Source: Microcystis aeruginosa LEGE 91341 (GTDB lineage: Bacteria > Cyanobacteriota > Cyanobacteriia > Cyanobacteriales > Microcystaceae). Taken from it: a DNA stretch of 37,554 nt. The stretch's first letter is position 1. The number at the start of each line of letters is the position of its first letter. The notes under the pieces are model-generated. The model saw nothing but the letters and a program-made list of their open reading frames with translations. It had not been told where the DNA came from and searched no databases. Where the stretch lies: NCBI RefSeq assembly GCF_015206885.1, contig NZ_JADEXY010000022.1, forward strand, positions 1 to 37,554, read 5' to 3'. Below are positions 329-21,201 of the stretch, piece after piece. Both the position numbers and the translations under genes were made by a program.

Positions 329-1678
329 TTAGTAAAGCCATTCTAATTTTCTGACTAATTCTGGCATGACTTCTTTTTGATCGCGATATTTATGGATTCT
401 TTGTAAATTCTCATTTTGTTTTAAATTTTTGGCCAATTTACTAGGTAGATAGGCAGAATAAATTAATCCACCATTATTGGAAAATTCCTCAGTCATTGCT
501 GATATCCAAGGAAAAGGAGGCTCTCCAAAATAACTAAAATAGAATGGCTTTGACTGATCAAATATTATATCATAAATGCCAAAGTTGACCCAGCTAGTAA
601 TAAATAATGTTCTTTTGAGTGGATTAATTCCTTCGCTAACAAACCTGTTGATTTTTTTTGTGCCTCCTTTTTCTTCAATATATTTTTGGGTAGAGAAAAA
701 ATTCATATTTAATTCTTGAAAATTATTAATTGATTCTCTTAAATCTTTAGCTATTTGGAAAACATTAACTGTATCACTAGCCGCAGCAACATTAATCGTT
801 GAAATAAAGTTTCCCAAAAGATTTTCTGGTAATTCTATTCGGGATCTATAGTTAATTATTATTGACAGGTATCTTTCTTTATGATACTGATCGACTTCGG
901 AGATTATACTAGACAGATGCGCGCACAATGCATCATTTATAGACAAACTTTTTTTGGTATTTTCTAAAAATGCTTGTTTCATATTATTTAATTCATTTTT
1001 TGAAAAATAAAATTGTAATAAAAACTTATTTTGTCCAGAAGAAAATATGTAAAATATTAATTTAAACAATTCTTTAATGCTTAAATATCTAACACTAGGA
1101 ATAGTGTTGTTATTGTCTTTTAATTTTTCTTGGAGATACAAATCTCTTTCTTCAACAATTAGTGGCGCAGCATATTTTTTCCCATTTACTGAATTTGACC
1201 AAGCTTTCATCAGTTGCATAAATGTGTGCATATCGCCAATAGAATGATGCCAGGAAATCCCAAGACTCATTCCTCCACAAGCAAAATAGGTCAGTTTTAT
1301 AGTCATTACAGGGCTTTGGTTAGATATTACTTTTTGGGGATTAATTAGATTAACAAGCCTTTCTTTCTTGATTTTTGGAAGGTCCTCAATAACATGATCT
1401 AATGAAGAGTCATCTTTAGTAATTAAGAAAATTATTCCTTGATTGTTAGCATCTATACATAAATTGTTGTTTATTTTTTTCAATCTCCCTGCAAAAATGG
1501 AAAAATCACTTAACACTATTTTTAACGAATCTGTTAATATATTCGACTCAACACTTTCTTTATAGAAGAAGACAACACTAATAGGAAGATTAGCAAACAA
1601 CTGATCTATGATACCACAAGTTATTACCTGTTGAATATGGTGATTGCTTTGAACCATAAAGGTTTCTGATTTCATCAC
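329..1678 (-). CDS. BAHD-like acyltransferase (plant transferase family)
   Basis: A 449-aa protein with both hallmarks of the BAHD/condensation-like acyltransferase fold. HHSIGD carries the catalytic HxxxD (His145, Asp149), and NFGIYD at about residue 365 stands where plant enzymes have DFGWG. Family members move an acyl group from a thioester (CoA, or possibly a carrier protein) to an alcohol or amine. Translation can begin at GTG 1678 or at the adjoining ATG 1675; a GGAGG (complement of 1690-1694) lies about 11 nt before the GTG. It diverges from the desaturase gene and is strongly AT-rich. Inferred role: esterifying or amidating the product of the neighbouring polyketide synthase. The substrate cannot be read from the sequence, and a degenerate NRPS condensation domain is the main alternative. 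Confidence 0.75.
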   Translation of the reverse strand: MMKSETFMVQSNHHIQQVITCGIIDQLFANLPISVVFFYKESVESNILTDSLKIVLSDFSIFAGRLKKINNNLCIDANNQGIIFLITKDDSSLDHVIEDLPKIKKERLVNLINPQKVISNQSPVMTIKLTYFACGGMSLGISWHHSIGDMHTFMQLMKAWSNSVNGKKYAAPLIVEERDLYLQEKLKDNNNTIPSVRYLSIKELFKLIFYIFSSGQNKFLLQFYFSKNELNNMKQAFLENTKKSLSINDALCAHLSSIISEVDQYHKERYLSIIINYRSRIELPENLLGNFISTINVAAASDTVNVFQIAKDLRESINNFQELNMNFFSTQKYIEEKGGTKKINRFVSEGINPLKRTLFITSWVNFGIYDIIFDQSKPFYFSYFGEPPFPWISAMTEEFSNNGGLIYSAYLPSKLAKNLKQNENLQRIHKYRDQKEVMPELVRKLEWLY

Positions 1679-1721
1679 TAACTTCGTAGCCTCCGTGAAC
1701 GCTTACAGACATCTCAGCCCA

Positions 1722-1727
1722 ATTATA
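1722..1727 (-). promoter_or_regulatory. Possible -10 box for the acyltransferase gene
   Basis: A perfect TATAAT on the minus strand lies about 44-49 nt upstream of the acyltransferase start and upstream of its GGAGG. There is no convincing -35 box at 16-18 nt, so this is a tentative promoter call. Confidence 0.35.
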
Positions 1728-2095: not shown

Positions 2096-3193
2096 GTGAA
2101 AAATAACGTTAATCTTAACTCACTGATGAAACAGGGAGAGTACGCCAAAATCTTGCGTCCCCTACTTCCTGATGAGGCTTTTGTTCCTGACCTTAATAAG
2201 GTCTTTATTTTAGGGATTAATGTTGCCATTCTGCTACTAGGTTGGGGAACTGCGTCCTACCTTGATCGATGGCCTTGGTATTTTCTATGGTTATTTGTTC
2301 CCTTAGCTTTAATTATGGGCAATAGTATCATGGCTTTGATGTTTATTACTCATGAACTCACGCACTGTAAAACCATCAAAAACCGATTTTTAAGACAAAT
2401 TGTGAATCAATTAGGTTTTATGATGACCTGGCTACCTCCTACTTTTTGGAATGCACTTCACAATCGTCAACATCACCAAAACACTAATAGCCTTAAGGAC
2501 CCTGATCGCCGTTATTTGTTCGAGCAACCTAATAGTTGGGGAAAATTACTTCAGGAGTGGTTTGTTCCGTCTTCAGAAATCAAAACATTGAGTTTAGTTT
2601 TAGGAACGTGTAATGTCTGGGGTATCTATATTTTTCGCAATCTTATCTCTGTTATTTTATCTAATGATGAATTATTGGGGTATGGACCAGCTCCCTTTAA
2701 AGTCTATCCCAAAGAACGAAAGGTTATTACAATTGAACTACTAATTATTTTTATAATCCATCTGAGTATTATTATTTTTTTACAATTTCATCCTGTAAAA
2801 CTTTTACTCGGTTATTTTTTACCAATATGGATTGGTTATACTGGGATTATGTCTTACCTTTACACCCATCATATGCTTTGTCCTATGTCGGAAACTGATG
2901 ATTGTCTAATGACTACACTCTCGGTTCGCGTTCCTCGGATTGTTGATTATCTTCATGTTAACTTTTCTTATCATACGGAACATCATGTTTTTCCGACAAT
3001 AAACTCAGATTACTATCCGCTTGTGCAGCAGCTTTTAATAGAAAAATTTCCCGAGAAGCTTAACCTTATTCCGATACAAGAAGCATGGCGCTTAATGTTA
3101 CAAACCCCTATCCACTATAAAGATGAGACTACCTTTACTGATACCTTAGGAACTCAATTAGTTACCCGTCCTAAACCTTGTTTAACCAAATAA
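2096..3193 (+). CDS. Membrane fatty-acid desaturase/hydroxylase family protein
   Basis: A 365-aa integral membrane di-iron enzyme. The three histidine boxes are visible: HELTH (86-90), HNRQHH (122-127) and HTEHH (293-297), with an extra YTHH near 256-259. Hydrophobic stretches around 35-85 and 210-255 fit the four-helix desaturase topology. Such enzymes introduce double bonds or hydroxyl groups into lipid chains using O2 and electrons from ferredoxin. The start is GTG, supported by GGAG 8 nt upstream (2084-2087); the next Met is residue 11. The DUF1702 gene follows after 16 nt, so the two form an operon. Inferred role: tailoring the chain made by the enediyne-type synthase, perhaps desaturation or acetylenation. 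A general fatty-acid desaturase is the alternative. Confidence 0.85.
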   Translation: MKNNVNLNSLMKQGEYAKILRPLLPDEAFVPDLNKVFILGINVAILLLGWGTASYLDRWPWYFLWLFVPLALIMGNSIMALMFITHELTHCKTIKNRFLRQIVNQLGFMMTWLPPTFWNALHNRQHHQNTNSLKDPDRRYLFEQPNSWGKLLQEWFVPSSEIKTLSLVLGTCNVWGIYIFRNLISVILSNDELLGYGPAPFKVYPKERKVITIELLIIFIIHLSIIIFLQFHPVKLLLGYFLPIWIGYTGIMSYLYTHHMLCPMSETDDCLMTTLSVRVPRIVDYLHVNFSYHTEHHVFPTINSDYYPLVQQLLIEKFPEKLNLIPIQEAWRLMLQTPIHYKDETTFTDTLGTQLVTRPKPCLTK

Positions 3194-3209: not shown

Positions 3210-4172
3210 ATGTTTCAAATTTCCAGAGGATTATTACGCCGACTCTTAATGGGTCGCTCCGTTGAATTATTTAATAAAAAATGGAATACAGATTTTCCTG
3301 AACCTGAAACACTCGGCAGACAGCAAGTAAAAAAGTCAGCTTTTGGGTTTCTTGGTGGCTATAATAAAGCTCTTGAATTTGGTTTTTCTCCGTTACTCAT
3401 CAGCGAACTAGATGGATACAATCGTAACCTACGGGGATTTGCTTACGAAGGTGCTGGCATGGGTTTAGCAATGATTGACTACACCGCTTTGGGTAAGCGT
3501 TCACGACTTCAAGAATTTTTGGAAGGACCTGCCGCTCAATATCCAGAACTAATCCATGTAGGTGCTGGTTTTAGTATTGCCCTACTCCATAAAAATATTC
3601 ATAAAACTTTATCGCAAATGCCTCCTTTCTATCGTTGGTGGGCTATGGATGGTTTTGCCTTCTGTCGTGGAATTTTTGAATGGAAAAAATGTGTCATCCA
3701 CCAAGTCACTTATGGCCTTGATGGTTATTTTTTAAGAGCATTTGATCGTGGGCTAGGTCGTTGGTTTTGGTTCATGCACGATGCAGATGTAATGCGAATT
3801 GTTGATCAATTACAAAATTTTCCTGACTCTCGTCATGCTGACCTTTGGAATGGAATAGGTTTAGCTTGTACCTATGCTGGAGGAGTGAATCAAAAACAGA
3901 TCGAGTTTTTAAAAGAATCAGCAAAGTCTCACGTTTCTTATTTGGCATTAGGCTCTGCTCTAGCTGCTAAGTGTCGTTTAACGGCTGATCATATCGTTGA
4001 ACATAACGATTTGGCTTGTTCTATTCTCTGTAATATGTCAACTGAAGAAGTTGGACAATTAACTTTACATATTGCCAAAGAAATAAAGATTGATCCCGAT
4101 GAATCAGTATTAGTTGAACAGCCGATTTTTGAAACTTGGCGTGAAGCCATCCGTTCCCAATTAACGCGGTAA
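3210..4172 (+). CDS. DUF1702 protein, enediyne biosynthesis E3-like
   Basis: A 320-aa protein with the pattern I associate with DUF1702: a hydrophobic, basic N-terminus with LLRRLLMGR, then FxxGYNxAL, FAYEGAGMGLAMIDY (about 76-90) and HVGAGFSIAL (about 115-124). DUF1702 (E3) is one of the conserved accessory proteins of enediyne clusters, where E3, E4 and E5 accompany the PKSE; its chemistry is not established. The start has an AGGAAA ribosome-binding site, and the gene follows the desaturase by 16 nt. The synthase at 13.5-21.2 kb is of the matching type, which strengthens the call. E4 and E5 homologues are not present in the window. Confidence 0.8.
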   Translation: MFQISRGLLRRLLMGRSVELFNKKWNTDFPEPETLGRQQVKKSAFGFLGGYNKALEFGFSPLLISELDGYNRNLRGFAYEGAGMGLAMIDYTALGKRSRLQEFLEGPAAQYPELIHVGAGFSIALLHKNIHKTLSQMPPFYRWWAMDGFAFCRGIFEWKKCVIHQVTYGLDGYFLRAFDRGLGRWFWFMHDADVMRIVDQLQNFPDSRHADLWNGIGLACTYAGGVNQKQIEFLKESAKSHVSYLALGSALAAKCRLTADHIVEHNDLACSILCNMSTEEVGQLTLHIAKEIKIDPDESVLVEQPIFETWREAIRSQLTR

Positions 4173-4325: not shown

Positions 4326-6086
4326 TTAATTCCAAGGGTGTAATTTAGGTTGATATTGATAGGTCTTAAACTCTTGGCGCATCTTTTTAATAAAAGTTTT
4401 ATGGTTTAATTGACGAACTTTAAACCGATAAATTTTTTCACCAATAGCAATGTAAAAAGAATAACTTAATAATTGTGTAACTCGTATCCATGTTTTAGGA
4501 GCAAATCCCCCCCAAATTCCAAACCCTTTAAAACGAAGCTTTAAATAAAAAACAGCCAAAAAGAAAAATGTATTTTTTAAACAAAGAAGCACATTGCATT
4601 GATGAGGGTCAAGCCTTGAATTTTCTAAAAAATTATCAAAATATTTGCTAGGTCCATAACCCCAAAGTAATTGATCAGTTCGAGCAAAATCCATAATTCC
4701 TAAATTGGCATCACACTCCACCAATTGATCAAATTGTTGATGCAAATCAGAAAAAAGACTATTTTGGGGACCAGCCAAAAATTCAATTGCTTTGATATGT
4801 TCATTGATAAAGTGGAAATCCAGAAACCATTTACCAATATACATAGGCACTAAGTTACCAAACCAAAACATATTTTCCATATAAATCCGCCAACTCATTA
4901 CACTAGCATGACCTAAATGTTTTTCGTGATTTTGGTAGAGCCGACTATATGAAGTAGCTGTCGCCACCATAAACTTATTATACATATCTTGCTTCTTCTC
5001 AGCTTCAGGTTCTTTGGCTAATTTAGCTCGAATTACTTCAGTCACACATTCAATTCCCAGTGCTGTTACGACTAACCCAGGAGAGTATAATGGGTCAAAC
5101 ATTTGAGCAGCATCACCAATAACATACCAGTTATCTTGGGAAAGATGTTGCTTGCTATTATGAGCCAAGCGAGGAAGATAATTAAAATCAATACATTGCC
5201 CACTCTCGATAAGATTATAAACAATTTCGTGGTTAGCTTTAAAAAAACTTTTTAATTTTTCTAAGGTATTGATTTGGTTGGCTGCAATAGAATTTTTATG
5301 GTGTACCAAGCCGATAGATATTTCTTTTTGTTTGGTATCAATTGGGAGAACCCAAATCCAGTGTCCAGTTCCAAAAAAGTGTTTGGTACTATAGTAACTA
5401 CTAGCTGTACCGTTAATTTTATTGTAAATATTATCAAAAATATTGAGATCAATGTTCTTAACTCGAAGCCAAGCAGAACCCGTATTAATACCAGTCATCT
5501 CTTCAGAGTCTAAAATTACATTATTAAGTTTTTTCCCAATAATAAAACGACGGCCAGCTGCATCAATAACGTGCTTAGTTTTTAACTCGATAGATGCTTG
5601 ATCGAGTTTTACGGTTACCGTATGTAATTGATCACAAGGAGTTAATTCTACATCGATAACACGGCCATTATAGAAAGTTGCCCCCATCTCCTGAGTCATT
5701 TGGAGAACATCCTGCTCAAATTTAGCTCGATTAATATGAAAACTATCAATTAAAGGGGTACGATTAAAACCCATATGATAATAATCATTGACGCTCTTGG
5801 TCTGAGCTTGATTTTTAGGCCAGTGATAGTTTAGTCCATACTTAGGTGCGTGATTCTCCAGTAAATATTCATGGAGAGCTAACTCTTTACACATAAACAT
5901 TGAACTAATTTCTACAGTTGATTCGCCAATTTTCATATCTTTAATTGACCTTTCTGGATTCCGAGGATCAATAATTGCAACTTTAATGTTAGGGAGGTTT
6001 AATAACAAGTGCCTCGCTTGACAAATTCCCGCAAAACCGGCTCCCATAATAAGAACATCATAAACTTGCTGTTGAGTTTTATTCAT
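4326..6086 (-). CDS. FAD-dependent halogenase 1
   Basis: A 586-aa flavin-dependent halogenase. It has the dinucleotide-binding GAGFAG (15-20), a GESTVE motif near 54-59, HAPKYGLNYHW containing Lys82 at the position of the halogenase-specific lysine, and the family-defining WxWxIP-type motif as HWIWVLP (W243, W245). A second FAD motif reads GDAAQMFDPLYSPGL. The enzyme would use reduced FAD, O2 and halide to make hypohalous acid that chlorinates an electron-rich substrate. The C-terminal third contains hydrophobic stretches absent from tryptophan halogenases. AAGGA lies about 9 nt before the ATG. The three paralogues are head-to-tail with gaps of 51 and 70 bp and are probably co-transcribed. 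Carrier-protein-bound or free polyketide substrates are both possible. Confidence 0.88.
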   Translation of the reverse strand: MNKTQQQVYDVLIMGAGFAGICQARHLLLNLPNIKVAIIDPRNPERSIKDMKIGESTVEISSMFMCKELALHEYLLENHAPKYGLNYHWPKNQAQTKSVNDYYHMGFNRTPLIDSFHINRAKFEQDVLQMTQEMGATFYNGRVIDVELTPCDQLHTVTVKLDQASIELKTKHVIDAAGRRFIIGKKLNNVILDSEEMTGINTGSAWLRVKNIDLNIFDNIYNKINGTASSYYSTKHFFGTGHWIWVLPIDTKQKEISIGLVHHKNSIAANQINTLEKLKSFFKANHEIVYNLIESGQCIDFNYLPRLAHNSKQHLSQDNWYVIGDAAQMFDPLYSPGLVVTALGIECVTEVIRAKLAKEPEAEKKQDMYNKFMVATATSYSRLYQNHEKHLGHASVMSWRIYMENMFWFGNLVPMYIGKWFLDFHFINEHIKAIEFLAGPQNSLFSDLHQQFDQLVECDANLGIMDFARTDQLLWGYGPSKYFDNFLENSRLDPHQCNVLLCLKNTFFFLAVFYLKLRFKGFGIWGGFAPKTWIRVTQLLSYSFYIAIGEKIYRFKVRQLNHKTFIKKMRQEFKTYQYQPKLHPWN

Positions 6087-6137: not shown

Positions 6138-7943
6138 CTAAACACTTATTTGCTTATGCCAAGGATTTAACTTAGGTTGATGTTGATAAGCTTGAAACTC
6201 TTCTTTCGTTTTTTCAATCATCGTATTATCAGGAACATTACGATAATTAAACAAATAGATTTTCTCGCCAATTGTTGCCATTAAGCAGAAGAATAAAAGT
6301 TGCATGATTCGCCAAGAACAACGGGGAGCTAACACTCCTAAAACGCCGTAAGCTTTAAATCTAAGTTTAATATAGAACATGGCCATAAAAAATAGAGCTG
6401 TTTTCATGCCAGCATAAACATTGCAACGTTTTGGCTCATATTTTTCGCTTTCAAGATAATCATCAGCGTGTTTTAGAGGACCGTAACCCCACATTAATTG
6501 ATCAATGCGACTATAATCCATCATTCCAATGTTAATTTTACGTTCAACTAATTGATCAAACTCCTCATACATCTGTGAAAAAAAGCTCTTCTTACTAAAG
6601 AAAAAAATATCACCAATGGCTAAATATTTCTGGATAAAGTCAAAATCTAAAAACCACTTGCCGACAAACATAGGAATTAAAACTCCAAACCAGACCATAT
6701 TCTCAAGATAAATTCGCCAACTCATTACACTGGCATTGCCCAGATGTTTTTCATGATGACGATAAACTTGATTGTAAGAACGAGAATTGGTGACTAAAAA
6801 TTTATTGTACATCTCTTGTTTTTGTGGAGCGTCAGCATCATTGTTTAGCTTCGCACGAATAACTTCTGTAGTAGATTCAATACCTAAAACTGCTAATACT
6901 AAACCTGGAGAATATAAAGGATCGAACATTTGAGCAGCATCCCCCAAAACATACCAGTTATCCTCAGAAATAATTTTTTTACTATTATGAGCGAGTCTCG
7001 GTAGATGATGAAAATCAACTATCTCACCACTTTTAATAATATTAAAAACAATGGTTTGATTGGCCTCTAGAAAACTGGTGAATTTATCTAAAGTATTGAT
7101 TTGATTGAGAGGAATAATGTTTTTATGGTAAACAACTCCAATAGATAATTCTTTTTCATTTCTGTCAATAGGAAGCATCCATATCCAATGACCATGGCCA
7201 AACCAATGATTCGTTGTGTAGTAACGGCTAGCACCACCATTTGAAGGCCGATAGTTATCATAGTAAATGCTACGATCTACATTTTTGACGCGCAGCCACG
7301 AAGAGCCAGTATTGATTCCATAAAGTTGCTCAGGATCGAAAATTAAATTATCCGTTTTTTTGCCAATGATAAAGCGCCGACCAGCCGTATCTATCAGGTG
7401 TTTTGCTTTTAGTTCTATTTCTCCTTGATCGAGTTTAACTTTGACAGTATGTAACTCATCTTTGGGAGTTAGTTCTACATCGACAACACGACCATTATAA
7501 AATTTTGCCCCCATCTCTCGGTTCATTTGTAAGACATCTTGTTCAAATTTAGCTCGATTGATATGAAAGCTATCAATACTGGGAGAACGGTTCATCCAAA
7601 TATGAAAATAGTCATCAGGCGTTTTCGTTTTTTCTGGATTTTTTGGCCAATGAAAACTGAGTCCGTACTTGGGTGCGTGGTTCTCAATCATATATTCATA
7701 AAGTCCAAGTTCTTTAAACAGAAAAATAGCGGTGATTTCAACCGTTGATTCCCCTATTTTTAAATCTTTGACCGACCTTTCAAGAGAGCGAGGATCAATC
7801 AGCGCAACTTTAAGGTTTGGAATATTTAATAGCAAGTGTCTAGCTTGGCAAATACCAGCAAACCCGGCTCCCATGATGACAACATCATAAACTTGTTCTT
7901 GACAAATTTTTGAGGGGGCAATGTCCATTTGAGCAAAATTCAT
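6138..7943 (-). CDS. FAD-dependent halogenase 2
   Basis: A 601-aa paralogue of its two neighbours, with an N-terminal extension of 10 residues relative to halogenase 1. It retains GAGFAG (25-30), GESTVE, Lys92 in NHAPKYGL, HWIWMLP (W253, W255) and GDAAQMFDPLYSPGL, so every recognisable catalytic element is present. GGAAGG lies about 11 nt upstream of the ATG. It looks closer to halogenase 3 than to halogenase 1 around the LYGINTGSSWLRVKN segment, suggesting stepwise tandem duplication. The C-terminal part (about 515-575) holds two hydrophobic stretches that could contact a membrane. Distinct regiochemistry for each paralogue is plausible but not shown. Confidence 0.88.
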   Translation of the reverse strand: MNFAQMDIAPSKICQEQVYDVVIMGAGFAGICQARHLLLNIPNLKVALIDPRSLERSVKDLKIGESTVEITAIFLFKELGLYEYMIENHAPKYGLSFHWPKNPEKTKTPDDYFHIWMNRSPSIDSFHINRAKFEQDVLQMNREMGAKFYNGRVVDVELTPKDELHTVKVKLDQGEIELKAKHLIDTAGRRFIIGKKTDNLIFDPEQLYGINTGSSWLRVKNVDRSIYYDNYRPSNGGASRYYTTNHWFGHGHWIWMLPIDRNEKELSIGVVYHKNIIPLNQINTLDKFTSFLEANQTIVFNIIKSGEIVDFHHLPRLAHNSKKIISEDNWYVLGDAAQMFDPLYSPGLVLAVLGIESTTEVIRAKLNNDADAPQKQEMYNKFLVTNSRSYNQVYRHHEKHLGNASVMSWRIYLENMVWFGVLIPMFVGKWFLDFDFIQKYLAIGDIFFFSKKSFFSQMYEEFDQLVERKINIGMMDYSRIDQLMWGYGPLKHADDYLESEKYEPKRCNVYAGMKTALFFMAMFYIKLRFKAYGVLGVLAPRCSWRIMQLLFFCLMATIGEKIYLFNYRNVPDNTMIEKTKEEFQAYQHQPKLNPWHKQISV

Positions 7944-8013: not shown

Positions 8014-9807
8014 TCAAGCTTGTGCCTTTTCTCCCCAAGGTTGTAGCTTAGGCTCATACTTATAATTTTTAAAATCTTTTTTCATTTTTTCAACGAAGGT
8101 ATTATCGGGAAGGTGACGGGTCTTAAATAGATAAATTTGTTCTCCCATGGCCAGGTAAGCAGATAAAGACAGGAGTTGAAAAACGTAGAAAAGAGAGCGA
8201 GGAGATAACATTCCTAAGATTCCATAGCTTTTAAAACGAAATTTAAGATAATAGAGGCTCAGGTAAAACATAGTTGCTTTCATTCCTGCAAAAACATTAC
8301 ACCGTAGGGGTTCAAACTTAGTATTTCCTAAATAATGATCAAACTCTTTACTGGTTCGATAACCAAATAACAGTTGATCATTGCGGGTAAAATCCATTAA
8401 GCCAATATGAACTTGATCATCAACTAACTCATCAAAGTGTCTATGCAAATTATTAAAAAAACTATTTTGAGCAAAAAATAAAAAGTTGGCTATTTTCACA
8501 AAATGACTGATAAATTCTGAGTTGAGAAACCACTTACCCACATACATCGGCAATAAAACACCAAACCATAACATATTTTCACTATAAGTTCTCCAACTCA
8601 TGACAGAAGCATTTCCTAAGTGTTTCTCATGCTTTTGACAAAAGAAATTATAGGTTCTAGCATTCGTCAATAAAAACTGATTAAAGTCAGCTTGTTTTTG
8701 CCGAGCGTCTGGTTCTTGAGCTAGCTTGGAACGAATTGCTTCAGTGACACTTTCAATACTCAAAGCAGTCAAAACTAACCCAGAAGAATAAAAGGGATCA
8801 AACATATGAGCAGCATCACCTAAAATATACCAGTTGTCTTGAGAGATTATTTTTTTACTCATATGAGCTAATCTGGGCAAATTATGGAAATCAACTGTCT
8901 CACCACTTTCGATAATGTTGTAAACCAAATTATGATTAGCCTTTAAAAAGGCTTGAAATTTATTGATTTTATTGATTTCAGAAGTCGGAATAATATTTTT
9001 ATGATAAACAATCCCGATCGATAATTCTCTTTCATTCCTTTCAATTGGAAGCATCCATATCCAATGCCCATGACCAAAAAAATGATTCGTTGTATAATAG
9101 CGACTAGCAGCACTATTAGCAGGGTCATATCCATCGTCAAGAATTGTCCGATCTATGTTTTTAACCCGCAGCCATGAAGAGCCGGTATTAATTCCATAAA
9201 GTTGCTCAGGGTCAAACATTAAATTATCTGTTTTCTTGCCAAGAATAAAAGAACGACCAGCTGCATCAATAAGATGTTTAGCTTTCAGTTCAACTGTTTC
9301 TTTAGCTAGTTTAACTTTAACAGTATGCAACTCATCTTGAACAGTTAAATTTACATCAGCAACACGACCATGATAAAATTCTGCTCCCATTTCTAAATTC
9401 ATTTTCAGAACATCTTGCTCAAATTTAGCTCGATTAATCTGAAAGCTTTCCAAAGGAGGTGGACTGGCTGTCCAGATATGAAAGTAATCTTCACAACTTT
9501 CGGTTTGAGATTGATTTTTTGGCCAATGAAAACTGAGTCCATGCTTAGGACAATGATGTTCAATGAGGTATTCGTAAAGCCCTAACTCTTTGTACATAAA
9601 CATCGAGCTAATTTCGACCGTTGATTCTCCTACTTTTAGGTCTTTATCTGACCGCTCTAAGGAGCGGTGATCGATTAAAGCAATTTGAAGATTGGGAACC
9701 TTGAGTAAAAGATGTCTTGCTTGACAGACACCGGCAAATCCCGCCCCCATAACAACGACATCATAAACTTTTGGTGATACAGACACTAGATTTTCACTAA
9801 CATTCAT
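8014..9807 (-). CDS. FAD-dependent halogenase 3
   Basis: A 597-aa member of the tandem halogenase set, first in the transcription direction. Seen motifs: GAGFAG (21-26), GESTVE, HHCPKHGL with Lys88, HWIWMLP (W249, W251) and GDAAHMFDPFYSSGL. The change from APKYG to CPKHG and from PLYSPG to PFYSSG suggests an altered pocket. The start ATG is preceded by AGAGG. The upstream 413-bp spacer must carry the promoter for the three genes, but I cannot pick one out. As in the paralogues, the C-terminal region includes a hydrophobic FYLSLYYLKFRF stretch. Function is inferred from family motifs and from the neighbouring polyketide synthase. Confidence 0.88.
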   Translation of the reverse strand: MNVSENLVSVSPKVYDVVVMGAGFAGVCQARHLLLKVPNLQIALIDHRSLERSDKDLKVGESTVEISSMFMYKELGLYEYLIEHHCPKHGLSFHWPKNQSQTESCEDYFHIWTASPPPLESFQINRAKFEQDVLKMNLEMGAEFYHGRVADVNLTVQDELHTVKVKLAKETVELKAKHLIDAAGRSFILGKKTDNLMFDPEQLYGINTGSSWLRVKNIDRTILDDGYDPANSAASRYYTTNHFFGHGHWIWMLPIERNERELSIGIVYHKNIIPTSEINKINKFQAFLKANHNLVYNIIESGETVDFHNLPRLAHMSKKIISQDNWYILGDAAHMFDPFYSSGLVLTALSIESVTEAIRSKLAQEPDARQKQADFNQFLLTNARTYNFFCQKHEKHLGNASVMSWRTYSENMLWFGVLLPMYVGKWFLNSEFISHFVKIANFLFFAQNSFFNNLHRHFDELVDDQVHIGLMDFTRNDQLLFGYRTSKEFDHYLGNTKFEPLRCNVFAGMKATMFYLSLYYLKFRFKSYGILGMLSPRSLFYVFQLLSLSAYLAMGEQIYLFKTRHLPDNTFVEKMKKDFKNYKYEPKLQPWGEKAQA

Positions 9808-12787: not shown

Positions 12788-13474
12788 ATGAAGCCAATTG
12801 CTATTAAAAATCTCAATCATCACTTCGGAAAAGGTAATTTAATTAAACAGGTTTTGTTTGATATTAATCTCGAATTATCCCAAGGAGAAATCGTGATCAT
12901 GAGTGGACTATCAGGGTCAGGAAAGAGTACATTGCTATCTTTAATTGGAGGATTACGTTCAGTCCAAAAAGGAAGCATAAAAAACCTAGGCAAAGAATTA
13001 AAAGGGTCCAGTGAACAACAACTGGTAGAAGTTCGTCGCCAGCTTGGCTATATTTTTCAAGCACATAATTTATTACCTTTCCTAACGGTTCAGCAAAATG
13101 TTCAAATGTCTATTGAACTCGATGACAATCTAGATAAACAGCAGACTGATGAGCGAGCAAAAGTAATACTTAAAGAAGTTGGCCTAGAAGAAAGAATAAA
13201 CTACTATCCTGAGAACCTCTCAGGGGGACAGAAACAAAGGGTAGCGATCGCCCGTGCCTTGGTTCATCACCCCAAATTAATTTTGGCTGACGAACCAACA
13301 GCGGCTTTGGACAGCAAGACAGGTCGAGATATTGTCTGCCTAATGCAGCGTCTCGTCAGAGAACAACAATGTACTATTTTGCTAGTCACTCACGACAATC
13401 GCATCTTAGATATTGCCGACCGCCTCCTTCACATGGAAGATGGTCGACTAATTGAAGTCAATAGAGTTTGTTGA
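12788..13474 (+). CDS. DevA-type ABC exporter ATPase
   Basis: A 228-aa nucleotide-binding subunit with all catalytic elements: Walker A GLSGSGKST (40-48), Q-loop at FQAHN (90-94), signature LSGGQ (144-148), Walker B LILADE (164-169) and the switch His202 in VTHD. The MacB/LolD/DevA class is recognisable from LMQRLVREQQCTILLVTHD and the short C-terminus ending LLHMEDGRLIEV. AGGAGA precedes the ATG. It ends 44 bp from the 3' end of the convergent polyketide synthase gene, with no strong intrinsic terminator between, so the two transcripts may overlap at their ends. It powers the exporter formed with the two upstream genes. Confidence 0.93.
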   Translation: MKPIAIKNLNHHFGKGNLIKQVLFDINLELSQGEIVIMSGLSGSGKSTLLSLIGGLRSVQKGSIKNLGKELKGSSEQQLVEVRRQLGYIFQAHNLLPFLTVQQNVQMSIELDDNLDKQQTDERAKVILKEVGLEERINYYPENLSGGQKQRVAIARALVHHPKLILADEPTAALDSKTGRDIVCLMQRLVREQQCTILLVTHDNRILDIADRLLHMEDGRLIEVNRVC

Positions 13475-13518: not shown

Positions 13519-16500
13519 TTATGATAAGTCGCAGTAATTGGATAAAGCTTCTTTAACTCGATGGGGTAAAGGTGCTGGTTCATAAGTTCTTTTTTCTGTT
13601 GCAACTAACCAGACGGTAAATTGTTCGCCAATAGCAACTTTTTGTTTTTTTCCCTCCGGGGTGATTCGGAAATATTCAAATCTTAAACCCATCCCACACT
13701 CGGAGATTGATTGGAGAGACATAATTACCTCAATGGAGTCAAAAGGAAATGCTTCTCGCAAATATTTAACCTCACTGTGCCCTGTCCGAAATTCTCCTTG
13801 ACTTTGAGTTCTTTGATAGTAGTCTGGAATTAATTTATAAATAAATTGATCGAGAACTCTGCCTTGCCAAATCCCGTAAGTAGCAAAATTAATATTCCCC
13901 ATTGCATCACTGTCTTCTCTAGAGGTTTTGAAGATCTCTTTGTGTAAAAATAGACCTGGATGAGGCCCAGTCGGCAATTGATAAATCTTTTTGCCCATTT
14001 TATCAGATTTTGGTACAGGTTGAAGAGTAAAATCTGGAAGATGAAGCTGCTCGACAAAATTTTGCAGAAAAGCGGGTAAAGCTGTTGGCTCAGAGCTAAA
14101 GTTAGGAGATAACTGAACCCAAGTCATTGTCAATTTACTTGTCGCAATCCGTTCAAACTCACCATTAGGAAGCAGTTTGAGCCAATCATAATAAAAATTA
14201 ACGGTAGAATTGGCTGATCCTGAAACATTTCCAATCCAAATACGGGCTTCCAGAATATCTTGGAGTCCTGCCTCGCCAAAAATCTCAACTTGAGCGTGAT
14301 TAGTCACCATCCCGCAGTTTCCAGTCGCCAATTCCTCAACTAGAGCCTCCCGCAACGGCCACATCGCCAGATCTCGAACATTGTCTATCCAAGCAAAAAA
14401 TTGAGAAAAATAAACTGTTTTGCTAAAATTCGCCGTGTGTTTATGAGAAATTGGCCAGCGAACGACACAAATTTTAGAATTATCGTGGGCAATGTTAAGA
14501 CGATAAATATCAGAAGGTTGAACGCCCTGATCGAGCCTTGAGGTGGTAGAACAAGGGATAAAATCTCTGGTTTCTGGGGGGATATTGAACGCCTTAACCA
14601 CCACTGCCACAATTCTTGGTGCGCCGCGAGTCAAAACTATAGGAAAAGTGAGAACACTTAAAGAGTAACCTTCAGCCGTTCCCACAAAAAGAATACTATC
14701 TTCGACTTGATGACTCAGCGTTAGATCAATGTTTTGAAGATTTATGGCTTTGCGTAGAGCTTCGAGCGCTCCCCAAATCCGAGTTCCTGCAACATCTACT
14801 GATTCCGCTTGACGAGAAAGTAGTAACTGCCGCATCAAGGGTTCACGGGCATTTCCTAACAAGGCTAACCAATCAGCTTGAGAACGGTGAGTGATTGGTG
14901 CCAGATCACATCCTTGAAGAAAGCGATCGGACACACAGAGACAAAATTGATCATCATGAGATAAAGAGATTTCTAATGAGTCTTCTTTTAGCCCCTCAAC
15001 AACGGGTTTTCCTGAATCAAGCCATTTGATTTGAAATGGTTGAGATGTTTGTTTTTTGAGCGTTTTCTCAAAAATTGGCAGTTCGCATTGATGACGTTCT
15101 TCAACAGATAAGCGATGTAACCCTGGAAGATAAACGAGAGACAACGCAGGAACCGCCACTTTTAATTCTGGCGATCGTCGATACAGTTGAGATTGAAGTC
15201 TTTGTTCATCTCGCTCACTAGGATCAGCAATTTCTTCGGCTGTCGGATAATCTTCACGGCGTTCAAGAACACGAACTTGATAACCCTCAAGCTTTTCAAT
15301 AACTGCCCCCTCTGGATTCATCGCTAAAACAGTCGTATTGTACTGTCGGTCTTTTTGACCTTGGTTGATCGCTAGACCAAAACAAGACTCTGACTCGTAG
15401 GCATTAAATTGGTTAATTTCAAGGCTCTCGATTCCAATCGGTAAACAAAGATATTGAGGAATCATCACCTGTACTGAATGGATTAAAGAATCTCGGTAAT
15501 AGGGATCTCCTAAAATGAACGGCCCATCAGCCCGATCTAAATAGTCTTTTTCCCTCGCAGAACTATGAATCCCTTTCTGTGTGCGAAAGAGGATATGACG
15601 AGAGTCTAAACTATAAATCTGCTCTAAGCGTTGAAAACGAGGACCTTGAAACAATAACCAGCTATAGAGATCTTGAAGGGGATCGAGATCGAGAGGTGTT
15701 GAAGGCAGTTGTCTTTTCTCCAGAGGAATTTCCTTTGTTTGGCCAAAGACAAAGTCAGCCGCAAAATGCGCTAGGGCAAATCCTGTTCGTTCTGTTCTAA
15801 TTTCAGCGCGAACTCGTATCGGCTCTTGAGCCGACTGTCGTTCCAGTACCTCAGTCCGAAGTTCAATTTCTACTCCGTTTTTGGGGTCAACAACGATTGG
15901 CCTTTCTAAACGAATATTCTCTAAGCGAACTGATAAGAGGTTTTCTTTTCTTAAAGTATAAGCTACCGCTTGGGCCATAGCTTCCAGACCAAACACGGTA
16001 GGGAATAGATAAGAACCTTTGTAAATATGGTGTTGAACGTAGGAATCCCGTTTTAGAGTAAGATGGCTGCGAATAACGCTTTCTACGCCAGGTTCTAGTA
16101 TCTCTATCTGTTCTAGAAAAGTCAGTCTTGTTGGCGGTGCTGTTCGTTTTGTCAGCCAAGTATCAAAATTTCCTTTGAGAGAATCTAGATTACCGAGTCT
16201 TGCTGCAATTACGACTTGAGCATCTCCCGGATCATTTTCTACCAGTTCAACAAAACGACTGACTCCTTCTGATACCGAGATCGCTTCAATCCCCCTACGG
16301 GCTAGACTTTCTACTGCATTCATCCGCGCTCCCATGCCTACGTCTGCCCAGATACTATAGGCAAGGGAAATAACCGCTGTTTTGGGGTGTTCTTGCTGAA
16401 AACACCGGAGAATTAAATCTAATGCTTCATTGGAGAAGCTATACCAAGTATTTCCAGGCAGTCCCAACACCGAACCAATTGAGGAAAAGCCAACAATTAG

Positions 16501-19500
16501 CTTGGGCGCTTTGTTTTCTAAAACTCCCATAAGATTGAGAAGCCCTAAGATTTTGGGAGTAACTTCTTGATAAGCTTCTTCTAAAGGACATTGTTCGACC
16601 TTTTGAGGGCGGTTAATAGCGGCTCCATGAATGACTCCTGTAATCTGTCCGAGTTCTTGTTCAATCCTGGCGACAAGGGTTTTGACTGACTCAATATCAG
16701 CAATATTACAGGAATAATAGTGACAAGTTAGTCCTTTCTCTTGAAAACGTTTGAGAGTCCTGGCAATCTCTGCACTCCGGGGACTGGGGGAATTTTCCTC
16801 AGGATGGGAAGAACTACCGACCAAAGCCATAGGAACGCCTGTTTTTTCGGCTAAGGCTAAGGCACACTCGGCGGTAATCCCTTTGGCTCCTCCAGTAACT
16901 AGGAACACATCTTCAGCAGACCAAGTTAAATTACGAGGAGAATAGCTGGCTCGGTCTTGAACTTGCGGTCGCGGAATTCGTCGGCAGAGTTGTTCATCAT
17001 AACCGACAAGAAGATAGGCTTGCGGTTGAGAGATTTCCTCGATAATGCGTTGAGCGATCGCAGATAAAGAAAGCTTTAAGGATAAATCAATCACCCGCAC
17101 TTTGAGATCGGCGCGTTCTAAATGGAGGCTGGCGGCAAAACCGACACTACAGCTTTGCTCGAGAGGTTGGCTCCCGATTCTTACTTTTTTACGATTCTGA
17201 CGATCTTGGTTGAAAATTACGGCTTGAGGATTCTGCCCTCTTTTGCCAAAATAGCCTCCGCCAAACTGAACATAACTGACGCTAGTGTACTGACGTTGAT
17301 CCTGAGAAGCTAGAGGAGGTGTTGCTACAGATTGTAGTCTAGCCATTGCTTTTTGGAGACGGTTTTCTATAGAAAGATTTTCTTGAGGATGGCGAGGAAA
17401 AATGGCAATAAAGTGACTAATTTTTACATTTTGCCTGAGAGAAAAGTCACTCTTTGCCTGAACAACCTCATGACTCATTGCACTGAAATTAACAATTTGG
17501 ACTTGAGATCCTTTCGTTTGCAGAACTTGACTAAGAGCCTGGGCGACATCAGTTTCTTCGACTTCGCAAACAATCACCACCTTCGCCTTTTCCCAGTTAT
17601 CCTCACAGAACAGATTAGCCGTTTCTAATTCCTGATTCTCCTCGGTTTCTCTTGTCTGACTGATCACATTATTATTGGCCGCAGTTTCTTCTAACACATA
17701 TTCAATTACAAAATTGCGAACCCAAGGATTTAAATCTCCTAGAGGGAGCTTGGTTTTATTTACCTGAGATAAACTAACTGGCCGGTTGGTTAGGGCTGTA
17801 CTCGCCTTACTCGTTGTCAACTGTGGCGAATTTTGCTTGATCTCTGTCTTCGGTAATTGTTGCCTGTTGTTACTATAATTATTGTTGGTCTGTTCTCCAA
17901 TTAAAGGACGGAAAACTTCTAGGATTTCTTGTAAACTAGCATTAGCTAGACTGGACGGATCAATTTGACCAGCTACACCACATTGAGAAGCCATAGCGGC
18001 CACTAATTCTGCTCCTTTGATCGAGTCTAAATTGAGATCGTCAAGTAATTTGGCATCTAAGGTAATACTGTCTCGTGGATATTCAGTTTGCTGAACCACT
18101 AAATCGATAAGAATTGCTTCCAGCGATAAAGATAGTGGTTGGCTATTCACGGGAATTTGTTGAGCAATGCCTTTGTCGGCATTATCATCGATACTTTGAA
18201 AAATCTTTAAAGAATCAATCTTAGTGCTGAAATCTTCAGATTCTTGAAACTTATTAGTCAGTAACAATGATTTTAAATCGACTAGGTGCTGATTATCAGC
18301 GATGGCAGAGATTTCTTCTTCAGACACCTGAAACGGTCTTTCGCAGAGGTTTTGAATAAACACCTGTTCCTGTGGAGCAACAAAAGGCCGGATCAGACGA
18401 TTTTCATAAACTTCTTGCCAATGAACGTCACCACCGAGGACAAAATAACTACCTAAAACAGTGTTGAGGTCGCGATCACGTCCAGCTTTTGACTCCAAGG
18501 GAAGACAGAAAGGCTCGTTAGCTGTCGTATTCGCTTTTACCAAGTCAGAAAGTATCTTACCCGGGCCCACTTCAATCATCAAGTCAGATGACGATGTCAT
18601 CGCCTTAACCATAGAAATAAAGTCAACTTGGGCGACAATTTGATCAGCAAAATGGTTTCGCAGCTCTAATCTTGCTTGTAATTGTTGGCCGTTAACACTG
18701 GAAAACAGCGATACTGACGGTGAGACCAATTGTTGAGGAATGAGAGCGCTATCCCTGAGTACCTTCGCTGATGGCAGCATCAGCCGCGAATGGAAGGCGT
18801 TGGACACGGGTAATTGACGAGTTAGGATATTTTTCCTCTCAGCCCGACTGATCGCCTCGGTAATACCCTCTAGCTCTCCAGAAATGACCGTTTGACTGGG
18901 ACTGTTAATATTGGCAACGACTACATAACTGGGAATTCCTTCTAATAAGCTTTCAGCAGTTAAGCGATCGCATCCTAAACTGGCCATGGTTCCAGGCGGT
19001 TGTCCTGATGTCGAGGTTGCCCTTCCTCGGATGGCCGCAAAACACAGGAGAGTCTTCTCGTCATAAGCTCCAGCAGCCTGAAAAGCGGTTAATTCTCCTA
19101 AACTATGACCACCAACGGCAACAGGGTTAATGCCTAAGCGAGCGAGATAACGTTGCCAGAGTAGCGAAGTCAAGCAAATCGCAGCAGAGGCAATGGGAGC
19201 AGCCGTTAACGCTTTTAACCACTGTTGGATTTGTTGCTGATCTTTGGCTCGTTCTAGGTCATGGTAAATGTAGGGACTGATGGGGTCAAGTTGTTGCTCC
19301 TGCAGCCATCGATCCGCTTGGGCTAGAAATTCTTGCGCCCAACTATGGCGTTCCACCAAAGTTCGAGCCATGTTTAAAGCTTGCGATCCTTGACCGGGAA
19401 ACAGAAAAGCGACACGGTTGCGCTTAACCCGATTACCGAGCCATAAGTCTTTTGGCACAGATGTCCTCACCTCCCCTGGACTCGGTGGCTGCTCCTTGAG

Positions 19501-21201
19501 GATTTGTTGTAATTTTTGCAGTTGTTCTCCTAAATGTTTGGGAGTTTCAGCGATCACTGCGGCGCGAATCGGTTGGGAGGGTTGCAGTTGTTGAGTTAAA
19601 TGAACGGCTAAGTCGGCCATTTCTGCCAGACTCATTTTTTGTGCAATGGGATATAATTCTTCAATTTGTTCGATTAAAGCCTCGTTCGAGCCAGCATTTA
19701 GCACAAATAGCTCTGTTTCTTGCTGAGAAACTAATAAGGCCCGTTCATTAAGGGAAGATTTTAAATAAACCGAGGGAGGATCGCCAGAAGTCAGGGTTAC
19801 ATGGGCATTAATCCCGCCAAATCCCATCGCTGAGACTCCAGCCCGCAAAATATCGCTGGTGGGACGAACTGCTCCACTGATGACAGGATAAATGGCTTGA
19901 GCGGTGGTTTCAAATACGGGGTTAAGTTCCCTGCAACCAGCAGTGGGAGGGATCACCCGTTGATTAACTCCCATGACTGCCTTAATTAAACCGCCTATTC
20001 CTGCGGCCGCTTTAGTATGACCGACAATGGATTTAAAAGAGGTAACGCCAACAGAACGGGGCGCAATTTCTCCATCAGCCGCAAGCGCTAGGGTAATTCC
20101 TTCTAATTCTGTGCGATCGCCTAAAGGAGTTCCCGTTCCATGTCCTTCAATAAAATCTAGTGCGTGGCTGCTATAGCTTGCTTGTTCGTAGGCACGACGC
20201 AGTGCTTTGGCTTGACCAATTTGGGAAGGTGCTGTCAGACCGCCTTTGCCATCAGAGGAAATCCCCCATCCTTCAATAATCCCATAAATATAATCTCCAG
20301 CCGCTCTAGCTTCTTCTAGACGTTTGAGGACAACAAAACCACTGCCTTCTCCTGGAATAAATCCACTGGCCTGGCGATCATATACTCTCATCTCATTGGC
20401 GGTTAGTGCTTCTGCTTTGGCAAAACCAACCAATTCAAAGGGATCTAAACTGATATCCACGCCTCCTGCTAAAGCTATATCCCATTGTTGGTTAGCTAGA
20501 TGGGTACAAGCTGTTATGACAGCAATGAGAGAGGAAGAACAAGCACCATCAACGGTATAACCGCCTCCATCTAAGTTGAAAAAGTTACAAATTCTCCCAG
20601 CAATAGTATTAGACAAGTTACCAGCTAGGCTATCTTCATTAATGTTGGGAAATACAGATTTATAGAGCTTTTCCATTAGCTCTTCCAAAACTCCTAAGCT
20701 TTCTGGGAGAAGACCTTTTATCCGAGCGGACTCCCGCAAACTTCGGCGCACAAACGGCCAGCGCATTCGCATAGATAGAGAACGACTTTGCTCACCCGTT
20801 AAGGTATTGCCTAAAATGACTCCAGTCTTGTCAGTAGGAATATTTTCTCGCGTATAGCCAGCATCTTCAAAGGCTTTTATCGCGACTTCAAGTGCTAACC
20901 AATGGGCAATATCTGTTGTCTCAAATGCTTTTTTAGGAATTCTTCTCTTCGCCCAATTAAACCTAAAACCGTCTATGACTGCCATCTGATTGCCATAGGT
21001 TTTATCGGGAGTTTTACGGTCAAGATCGTAATAGTCAACTAAGGGCAATCTTGCATCAGGTGTTTCTCGAAATTGCTGTCGTCTTGCTAGGATATTCTCC
21101 CAAAGTTTTTGCAAATCATTGGCTCCAGGGTAATAACATCCCATGCCAATTATTGCTATCTTAGTAGTCTCATTAGCCCAAGAATATGAACGATCTAGCA
21201 T
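13519..21201 (-). CDS. Enediyne-type iterative polyketide synthase with fused thioesterase domains
   Basis: A 2560-aa single-module synthase. Visible domains: KS about 12-470 (Cys221 in DGACSSS, His354 in EGHGTG, His395 in GHTKAAAG); AT about 597-905 (Ser700 in GHSLG, His804); ACP with Ser1060 in LDSIKG; KR with TGGAKG at 1436 and Ser1574/Tyr1587/Asn1591; DH double hotdog with HHIYKGSYLFP (His1725) and Asp1904 in DSLIH; Sfp-like PPTase with GCDL (Asp2099) and Glu2147. This order is that of PKSE enzymes, which modify their own ACP and build a polyene by iteration; there is no enoylreductase. Beyond the usual end lie two hotdog segments (about 2258-2390 and 2410-2545). The second, with NINFATYGIWQGR, resembles the separate enediyne thioesterase (CalE7/SgcE10 type). 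The ATG has no strong ribosome-binding site and sits in a 14-bp duplication. The cargo would be a polyene or polyenoic acid. Confidence 0.92.
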   Translation of the reverse strand: MLDRSYSWANETTKIAIIGMGCYYPGANDLQKLWENILARRQQFRETPDARLPLVDYYDLDRKTPDKTYGNQMAVIDGFRFNWAKRRIPKKAFETTDIAHWLALEVAIKAFEDAGYTRENIPTDKTGVILGNTLTGEQSRSLSMRMRWPFVRRSLRESARIKGLLPESLGVLEELMEKLYKSVFPNINEDSLAGNLSNTIAGRICNFFNLDGGGYTVDGACSSSLIAVITACTHLANQQWDIALAGGVDISLDPFELVGFAKAEALTANEMRVYDRQASGFIPGEGSGFVVLKRLEEARAAGDYIYGIIEGWGISSDGKGGLTAPSQIGQAKALRRAYEQASYSSHALDFIEGHGTGTPLGDRTELEGITLALAADGEIAPRSVGVTSFKSIVGHTKAAAGIGGLIKAVMGVNQRVIPPTAGCRELNPVFETTAQAIYPVISGAVRPTSDILRAGVSAMGFGGINAHVTLTSGDPPSVYLKSSLNERALLVSQQETELFVLNAGSNEALIEQIEELYPIAQKMSLAEMADLAVHLTQQLQPSQPIRAAVIAETPKHLGEQLQKLQQILKEQPPSPGEVRTSVPKDLWLGNRVKRNRVAFLFPGQGSQALNMARTLVERHSWAQEFLAQADRWLQEQQLDPISPYIYHDLERAKDQQQIQQWLKALTAAPIASAAICLTSLLWQRYLARLGINPVAVGGHSLGELTAFQAAGAYDEKTLLCFAAIRGRATSTSGQPPGTMASLGCDRLTAESLLEGIPSYVVVANINSPSQTVISGELEGITEAISRAERKNILTRQLPVSNAFHSRLMLPSAKVLRDSALIPQQLVSPSVSLFSSVNGQQLQARLELRNHFADQIVAQVDFISMVKAMTSSSDLMIEVGPGKILSDLVKANTTANEPFCLPLESKAGRDRDLNTVLGSYFVLGGDVHWQEVYENRLIRPFVAPQEQVFIQNLCERPFQVSEEEISAIADNQHLVDLKSLLLTNKFQESEDFSTKIDSLKIFQSIDDNADKGIAQQIPVNSQPLSLSLEAILIDLVVQQTEYPRDSITLDAKLLDDLNLDSIKGAELVAAMASQCGVAGQIDPSSLANASLQEILEVFRPLIGEQTNNNYSNNRQQLPKTEIKQNSPQLTTSKASTALTNRPVSLSQVNKTKLPLGDLNPWVRNFVIEYVLEETAANNNVISQTRETEENQELETANLFCEDNWEKAKVVIVCEVEETDVAQALSQVLQTKGSQVQIVNFSAMSHEVVQAKSDFSLRQNVKISHFIAIFPRHPQENLSIENRLQKAMARLQSVATPPLASQDQRQYTSVSYVQFGGGYFGKRGQNPQAVIFNQDRQNRKKVRIGSQPLEQSCSVGFAASLHLERADLKVRVIDLSLKLSLSAIAQRIIEEISQPQAYLLVGYDEQLCRRIPRPQVQDRASYSPRNLTWSAEDVFLVTGGAKGITAECALALAEKTGVPMALVGSSSHPEENSPSPRSAEIARTLKRFQEKGLTCHYYSCNIADIESVKTLVARIEQELGQITGVIHGAAINRPQKVEQCPLEEAYQEVTPKILGLLNLMGVLENKAPKLIVGFSSIGSVLGLPGNTWYSFSNEALDLILRCFQQEHPKTAVISLAYSIWADVGMGARMNAVESLARRGIEAISVSEGVSRFVELVENDPGDAQVVIAARLGNLDSLKGNFDTWLTKRTAPPTRLTFLEQIEILEPGVESVIRSHLTLKRDSYVQHHIYKGSYLFPTVFGLEAMAQAVAYTLRKENLLSVRLENIRLERPIVVDPKNGVEIELRTEVLERQSAQEPIRVRAEIRTERTGFALAHFAADFVFGQTKEIPLEKRQLPSTPLDLDPLQDLYSWLLFQGPRFQRLEQIYSLDSRHILFRTQKGIHSSAREKDYLDRADGPFILGDPYYRDSLIHSVQVMIPQYLCLPIGIESLEINQFNAYESESCFGLAINQGQKDRQYNTTVLAMNPEGAVIEKLEGYQVRVLERREDYPTAEEIADPSERDEQRLQSQLYRRSPELKVAVPALSLVYLPGLHRLSVEERHQCELPIFEKTLKKQTSQPFQIKWLDSGKPVVEGLKEDSLEISLSHDDQFCLCVSDRFLQGCDLAPITHRSQADWLALLGNAREPLMRQLLLSRQAESVDVAGTRIWGALEALRKAINLQNIDLTLSHQVEDSILFVGTAEGYSLSVLTFPIVLTRGAPRIVAVVVKAFNIPPETRDFIPCSTTSRLDQGVQPSDIYRLNIAHDNSKICVVRWPISHKHTANFSKTVYFSQFFAWIDNVRDLAMWPLREALVEELATGNCGMVTNHAQVEIFGEAGLQDILEARIWIGNVSGSANSTVNFYYDWLKLLPNGEFERIATSKLTMTWVQLSPNFSSEPTALPAFLQNFVEQLHLPDFTLQPVPKSDKMGKKIYQLPTGPHPGLFLHKEIFKTSREDSDAMGNINFATYGIWQGRVLDQFIYKLIPDYYQRTQSQGEFRTGHSEVKYLREAFPFDSIEVIMSLQSISECGMGLRFEYFRITPEGKKQKVAIGEQFTVWLVATEKRTYEPAPLPHRVKEALSNYCDLS

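Follow-up and report, generated by a model that had tools for sequence, protein, structure and literature searches.

A probable biosynthetic island of Microcystis aeruginosa LEGE 91341 with a PksE-like polyketide synthase, three predicted flavin-dependent halogenases and a DUF1702 protein

The window, i.e. the whole stretch of 37,554 bp of DNA analyzed here, is an entire contig (C231; NZ_JADEXY010000022.1) of the Microcystis aeruginosa LEGE 91341 genome (280 contigs, 4.49 Mb), so that the island described below is open on its left side. The first-pass annotation had named an enediyne-type polyketide synthase (PKS), a DUF1702 protein, three halogenases, a desaturase, an acyltransferase and a DevBCA-type exporter, and all of these were confirmed as intact ORFs, each with a profile match. 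The features are as follows:

329..1678, minus strand: BAHD-like acyltransferase (PF02458, 118 bits; cut-off 22.7)
2096..3193, plus strand: membrane fatty-acid desaturase (PF00487, 97.8 bits; cut-off 29.7)
3210..4172, plus strand: DUF1702 protein (PF08012, 253 bits; cut-off 25)
4326..6086, minus strand: predicted flavin-dependent halogenase 1 (PF04820)
6138..7943, minus strand: predicted flavin-dependent halogenase 2 (PF04820)
8014..9807, minus strand: predicted flavin-dependent halogenase 3 (PF04820)
10221..11525, plus strand: DevB membrane fusion protein (TIGR02971, 321.8 bits; cut-off 129)
11589..12770, plus strand: DevC permease (TIGR01185, 506.1 bits; cut-off 290.35)
12788..13474, plus strand: DevA ATPase (TIGR02982, 355.3 bits; cut-off 295.8)
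13519..21201, minus strand: PksE-like iterative type I PKS of 2560 aa (Pfam KS, AT, ACP, KR, PS-DH and 4HBT_2)
21463..22311, minus strand: protein with a PEP-CTERM-like C-terminal end (read by eye), within the island
22885..22939, no strand: island edge beside argZ, where synteny stops (nucleotide comparison with six of six genus genomes)

Twenty proteins of the window were scanned with Pfam (E ≤ 0.001). The PKS contains KS, AT, ACP, KR and DH domains and a terminal 4HBT-type thioesterase (TE); motifs are present in KS (Cys and two His), AT (GHSLGE) and ACP (DSI) as well as in KR, DH and TE. Between DH and TE, reading by eye suggested a PPTase-like part and another part that is hotdog-like. 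No PPTase family was matched in the PKS by Pfam at E ≤ 0.001, and the PPTase-like motif of the window, GCDLAPI, departs from GCD.E; among eight synthases with letters at this position, five have E, two have A (window and L075) and one has T. The best NCBIfam model for the PKS was PfaA (TIGR02813) with 566.7 bits, below its cut-off of 1010.1, and a full-length match to the PKS was found once in the genome of the source strain. The terminal part matched the solved thioesterases 9ccr and 5vpj (both named merely thioesterase in PDB), CalE7, 4i4j ('ACP-polyene thioesterase') and DynE7; an E10-type thioesterase is present, fused to the C-terminus of the PKS.

In a quick tree built from 49 KS domains, 23 halogenase-linked PksE-like rows, including that of the window, lay on one side of a branch with an SH-aLRT support of 98; this group adjoins four enediyne cassettes, two from cyanobacteria and two from actinobacteria. 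The window KS is 65–75% identical to members of the halogenase-linked group, 49–50% to the four canonical enediyne rows and about 37% to rows that we ourselves labelled PUFA-like. A PUFA or heterocyst-glycolipid synthase was rejected on this tree, in which the window KS is separate from the five PUFA-like rows (SH-aLRT 99 for those five). A more careful tree, built from 27 rows, put the window KS into a set of seven (97/97) with the other Microcystis rows outside; the further members, assigned by the quick tree, are L061, L062, L063, L068, L074 and L110. For the KS tree and the halogenase tree described below, duplicate rows were removed, as were proteins that did not fit set length limits. 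Constraining the window KS to group with four Microcystis rows, a group named after the first tree was known, gave a p-AU of 0.007. Constraining it with the four canonical enediyne rows gave a p-AU of 0.074, so that this grouping is not formally rejected; in the two trees themselves, the window KS falls into the halogenase-linked group.

Flavin-dependent halogenases possess the motifs GxGxxG and WxWxIP and a lysine after GES. All three window proteins carry GxGxxG, GES, WxWxLP (L for I in WxWxIP) and a lysine aligned with one in PltA, which we take to be the catalytic lysine. They scored above the PF04820 cut-off (43–54 bits versus 21) and below every NCBIfam cut-off (LodB-type, 74.5–77.9 against 400; CmlS, 52.9–61.1 against 900). 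Their closest solved relative is PltA (4.2e-23), with ChlB4 also among the nearest. Comparison of 79 halogenase proteins revealed W, W and P in all 79, a count that arises partly by construction because the scan pattern contained the WxWx motif, and K in 76. In a tree of these 79 proteins, the three window copies fell into a set of 14 rows (SH-aLRT 99) together with copies of the loci L058–L063 and L074 and one long-branch row from a Verrucomicrobiales MAG; halogenases 2 and 3 paired together (support 89). By homology, the three proteins are predicted flavin-dependent halogenases and may have halogenating activity.

The DUF1702 protein, presumably E3 of the enediyne cassette, was predicted to be all-helical (mean pLDDT 93.4), and no good PDB counterpart of the model was found among the chains compared. 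DUF1702 was present in six of the 386 cyanobacterial genomes drawn, including that of the window. Stretches of 20 kb from the others contained a PKS piece and two halogenases (G385), a PKS piece with a halogenase piece of 194 aa (G283), two halogenase ORFs, one of them cut (G199), a canonical enediyne cassette (G089), and no PKS piece, halogenase or cassette (G151). DUF1702 is a component of enediyne cassettes according to PMC7692728, and it lies within a cassette at locus L113.

The desaturase gene ends 16 bases 5' of the DUF1702 gene; owing to this spacing and the shared plus strand, both perhaps belong to one operon. The desaturase family is common: of the 290 other cyanobacterial genomes searched, 29 contain relatives (E ≤ 1e-40). 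In three of ten contexts they adjoin plsX-, fabH- and fabD-like genes, names given from first residues and, for the third gene, from a 28–29% match to the PKS; in none of the ten are they located beside a PksE-type PKS. Lipid metabolism may be the source of the window's desaturase. The acyltransferase has plant hydroxycinnamoyl transferases as its closest solved relatives by sequence. HxxxD and DFGWG are the names of the BAHD motifs; the former is present as HHSIGD, and the latter is degenerate. No relatives of this protein were found in the 290 other cyanobacterial genomes (E ≤ 1e-15), and a search of 72,556 plasmid records gave one match, 28% identical, in a Streptomyces.

Right of about position 22,939, the window shows 96–98% nucleotide identity over 2.3–5 kb to six genus genomes (G001, G002, G005, G009, G010 and G011, out of 11 others in the set), and left of about position 22,885 no match longer than 150 bases was found in the stretches taken from any of the six. 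The foreign stretch extends to about 22,885, beyond the end at 21,201 given in the first-pass annotation. The gene argZ is 98–99% identical in all 11 other genus genomes; the genes 3' of argZ differ among the six (L138–L143), so that this spot looks variable in general. A tRNA-Arg (CCT) is located at 33657–33732, beyond the island. The G+C content is 0.296 for the BAHD gene, 0.343–0.357 for the halogenase genes, 0.46 for devB, 0.439 for the PKS gene and 0.473 for argZ. The locus is probably a biosynthetic island that was acquired horizontally. Vertical descent from the other Microcystis clusters is disfavoured by the KS constraint (p-AU 0.007 for the group chosen after the first tree).

A scan for related loci with two peptide patterns, using one genome per species, yielded 55 loci, each bounded by contig ends or by a distance of 10 kb from the match. 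The scan is incomplete, since a related plasmid cluster of Gloeothece is absent from these 55. Some loci share a contig (L058 and L068; L059 and L074) or a genome (L065, L073 and L085; L095 and L097; L069 and L099; L066, L082 and L100). No halogenase is labelled in L101, L104, L105 and L106, where it is probably hidden by overlapping ORFs, and the matches of L112 (29–32%) are below the identity cut of 38%. Pieces of a PKS of the window's clade were found in 29 of the 55 loci, DUF1702 in 15, and PKS, DUF1702 and halogenase together in 13; the recurrence of this core in other genomes indicates a grouping beyond chance. Complete DevBCA is present in four of the 13 (L058, L059, L060 and L063), and L062 has DevC and DevA only. 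Five loci (L070, L071, L075, L079 and L083) combine PKS, halogenases and complete DevBCA without DUF1702. No ORF in the 55 loci was best matched by UnbV or UnbU. Co-conservation of the genes had been named as a check, and it held for the core of PKS, DUF1702 and halogenase and failed for the desaturase and the acyltransferase: relatives of these two were found in none of the 55 loci within their flanks (E ≤ 1e-6). Both genes therefore look like local additions and may be passengers; the idea of the whole gene set as one conserved unit was rejected on the same count.

Further layouts recur among the 55 loci. RPE65, ALDH and DUF1702 occur together in eight (Fischerella, Nostoc and Pelatocladus); an alpha/beta hydrolase, the proteins u310 and u133 and DevBCA, without DUF1702, in four (Microcystis viridis, M. 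novacekii, M. aeruginosa and Prochloron didemni); and another four (L082 and L085–L087), which lack both DUF1702 and DevBCA, combine a PKS with two halogenases and u133. The Gloeothece verrucosa PCC 7822 cluster on plasmid Cy782201 (L160, 3365–26820) comprises a split PKS, three halogenases, a carotenoid oxygenase, an alpha/beta hydrolase and DevBCA; such clusters can thus reside on plasmids. PEP-CTERM proteins are encoded near this cluster, with no similarity detected to the window protein at 21463..22311, for which no Pfam family was matched. RPE65-type (carotenoid-oxygenase) genes were found in nine of the 55 loci and in the Gloeothece cluster, and the window holds no carotenoid oxygenase. 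Polyenes are the usual substrates of RPE65-type carotenoid oxygenases, so that these genes in the nine related loci lend support to a polyene product.

In five of 12 genus genomes, the PKS group occurs with adjacent halogenases (G000, which is the genome of the window, G003, G006, G007 and G009). In G004, G008 and G010, a single halogenase of the window's family (53–54% identical) lies beside other PKS genes (L091, L093 and L107). Single halogenases of the window type beside other PKS genes were additionally seen in L077, L088 and L089, all three of which contain a KS that we labelled PUFA-like, so that this arrangement is found in Microcystis and elsewhere. In L088, assigned to a Candidatus Gracilibacteria MAG and perhaps mis-binned, PKS and halogenase group with cyanobacterial ones. 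More distant halogenase relatives (38–57% in the best segment) occur in L098, L101, L102, L104, L105, L106, L108 and L111, in MAGs labelled Myxococcota, Deltaproteobacteria, proteobacterium and Verrucomicrobiales. One halogenase of L063 is apparently split into ORFs of 372 and 268 aa; that copy may therefore be decaying.

As in the window, PKS, DUF1702 and halogenases occur together in all six of the loci L058–L063; DevBCA is complete in four of them and partial in one, and the contig of L061 ends before DevBCA. Identities to the window are 70–75% for KS, 59–68% for intact halogenases and 45–52% for DUF1702. Unlike in the window, the PKS is encoded by three genes, four of the six loci have two DUF1702 genes, and desaturase and BAHD genes are absent. 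The hosts are Anabaena subtropica FACHB-260, Dendronalium phyllosphericum CENA369 and MAGs of Nostocales, Mastigocoleus, Xenococcaceae and Hyellaceae.

DevB, DevC and DevA all exceed their NCBIfam cut-offs, and by homology DevBCA may export the product of the pathway. For DevB, the window shows 78–80% identity to the Microcystis clusters that lack DUF1702 and 53–58% to L058–L060 and L063; the difference is smaller for DevC (70–79% versus 65–72%) and absent for DevA (72–73% versus 70–73%). The halogenases behave in the opposite way (53–56% in the Microcystis clusters without DUF1702 versus 59–68% in the DUF1702-bearing loci), and so does the KS, slightly by identity (69–71% versus 70–75%) and clearly in the tree. 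The affinity of DevB as opposed to that of halogenases and KS hints at a mosaic origin of the island, which would be indicated mostly by DevB.

The locus had been regarded as a candidate for an undescribed system. This has to be corrected: an orphan cluster of Microcystis PCC 7806 that combines a PksE-like iterative PKS and three halogenases was already reported in 2008 (Frangeul 2008, PMC2442094), and Humbert 2013 lists 'PKSI iterat' with 15.2–16.1 kb, complete in two and partial in one of 12 strains (PMC3741299). No product is given for the 'PKSI iterative' cluster in the available portion of a 2026 review of Microcystis metabolism (PMC12838216). Among the literature matches listed, no characterized product or pathway with the full gene set was found, in agreement with the earlier statement. 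The PCC 7806 cluster, likened here by its published description, shares with the window a PksE-like PKS, three halogenases and the lack of a known product. The window belongs to the halogenase-linked PksE type, having a KS of this group and three adjacent halogenases of the same family. The clusters of G003, G006, G007 and G009 were taken as PCC 7806 type; their PKS is split in two, unlike that of the window, with the KS-AT part 63–64% and the second PKS protein 34–43% identical. They possess two or three halogenases (53–56% identical to those of the window) and an alpha/beta hydrolase gene, two of the four have additional genes for an SDR and for an RTX-repeat protein, and genes for DUF1702, desaturase and BAHD enzyme were not seen in any of them. 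Going by the 2008 description, the window is a divergent variant of this type of orphan cluster.

With the canonical enediyne cassette E3/E4/E5/E/E10, the window shares the PksE-like PKS, DUF1702 and a CalE7/DynE7-type TE; it differs by the presence of halogenases, by a KS of another group (49–50% identical) and in that UnbV and UnbU were not found. Searches with UnbV and UnbU of the canonical cyanobacterial cassette L050 gave no match in the source genome G000 (280 contigs, 99.97% complete), whereas the same searches were positive in G010 (65% for UnbV and 70% for UnbU) and in G089; a canonical enediyne is thus unlikely. In the Microcystis genome G010, a seeming canonical enediyne cassette was observed on contig C15 (L049, L155 and L158), comprising a PksE-like PKS of 1979 aa, UnbV, UnbU, DUF1702, a 143-aa thioesterase and DevB/DevC. 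In L050 (G089:C15), which belongs to a different cyanobacterium of the same order, genes for a TE, a PKS, a UnbU-like protein, UnbV and DUF1702 follow one another without interruption, as in a canonical enediyne cassette. For cyanobacteria, a clade of enediyne KS and clusters of enediyne type have been shown (PMC4247773), and a lake bin has an enediyne-class KS 64% like a Microcystis one (PMC5826242).

PKS-NRPS-PUFA hybrid clusters of a clade II, from Microcystis and other organisms, are described in PMC13291983; two of the Microcystis ones have a putative tryptophan halogenase. The above-mentioned loci of G004, G008 and G010, each with one window-family halogenase, were taken as members of this clade, which is unlike the window in having another PKS (KS rows that we labelled PUFA-like, about 37% identical), NRPS parts according to that paper, and one halogenase. 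Sponge-derived aurantoic acid and aurantosides are a precedent for a chlorinated polyene (PMC3280575) and were likened to the window by compound alone.

With gene content, motifs, KS group, island edge and recurrence of the core established, we favour, at moderate confidence, the reading that the locus directs formation of an exported, multiply halogenated polyene-type chain. The PksE-like synthase, sister to enediyne synthases, would use its own carrier protein to assemble a linear, conjugated chain of polyene type, to which up to three flavin-dependent halogenases would add halogen, probably chlorine. The fused enediyne 'ACP-polyene'-type TE would release the chain; DUF1702, desaturase and BAHD enzyme may tailor it further by extra unsaturation and ester formation, and the DevBCA pump, probably together with a TolC-type channel, would export the amphiphilic product. 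The polyene nature, the halogen and its positions, the order of steps and the export are all predicted from homology. A linear heptaene was seen upon co-expression of a PKSE with a thioesterase (PMC8725005). In line with the first-pass annotation, a halogenated polyene-type chain with DevBCA export fits the data best, as far as homology indicates, and its view that a true enediyne is unlikely is supported by the UnbV and UnbU searches with their positive controls.

The chain might instead become a halogenated polyyne, by elimination of vinyl halides or by the desaturase acting as an acetylenase, with DUF1702 involved and a linear alkyne formed without ring closure; we consider this unlikely. 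An iodinated intermediate provides a precedent in enediyne work, with which a 2024 study by Gui is, going by its title, reportedly linked. The precedent itself (PMC8725005), the occurrence of DUF1702 in enediyne cassettes (PMC7692728; L113) and the desaturase gene only 16 bases away speak for a polyyne, but relatives without DUF1702 or desaturase still keep PKS and halogenases, and neither UnbV nor UnbU was found in the genome.

A halogenated aromatic or cyclized polyketide in place of a linear chain is distinctly unlikely. The usual targets of flavin-dependent halogenases are aromatic or enolisable carbons, often in electron-rich aromatics, as with PltA and ChlB4, the nearest solved relatives of the window proteins; a plain polyene is therefore not a textbook substrate, which weighs against the favoured reading. 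Against an aromatic product, no cyclase or aromatase family was found among the 20 window proteins (Pfam, E ≤ 0.001), where weak lycopene-cyclase matches were confined to the FAD-binding part of the halogenases, and the TE resembles those of enediyne pathways.

That the island now makes nothing, being a mosaic or a remnant in decay, is also quite improbable. The uneven G+C content by gene (BAHD 0.30, halogenases 0.34–0.36, DevB 0.46, PKS 0.44) would fit such a remnant, as would BAHD and desaturase genes not common to relatives and a left end beyond the contig, where genes may be missing; yet all ORFs are open, including the PKS gene of 7.7 kb, and motifs are present except for the PPTase-like departure. 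A true enediyne warhead, suggested by the PksE-like PKS, the enediyne-type TE, DUF1702 and the p-AU of 0.074 for a KS grouping with canonical rows, is highly improbable and was set aside mainly because UnbV and UnbU are missing from the genome while G010 and G089 served as positive controls; the KS falls into a separate group in both trees, although by itself it is not decisive, and no further core oxidoreductase was recognized among the island genes in the general Pfam scan.

Returning to the halogenated polyene-type chain, we tentatively propose that a separate cyanobacterial lineage of enediyne-like synthases makes multiply halogenated polyenes or polyynes not yet isolated, using DUF1702 without UnbV and UnbU, to which the window would add desaturation and ester formation. 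This cluster type is widespread in cyanobacteria, including bloom-forming Microcystis, and no product later than the 2008 report was found for it among the literature matches listed. In the KS tree, its PKS clade neighbours the enediyne synthases, yet it is paired with halogenases. DUF1702 without its usual partners offers a simpler route to the function of that enediyne protein; if the separate-lineage proposal is true, the single reaction of DUF1702 would be open to study independently of the enediyne core. Related clusters in strains named after culture collections (FACHB-260, Fischerella thermalis PCC 7521 and Gloeothece verrucosa PCC 7822) make such tests practical.
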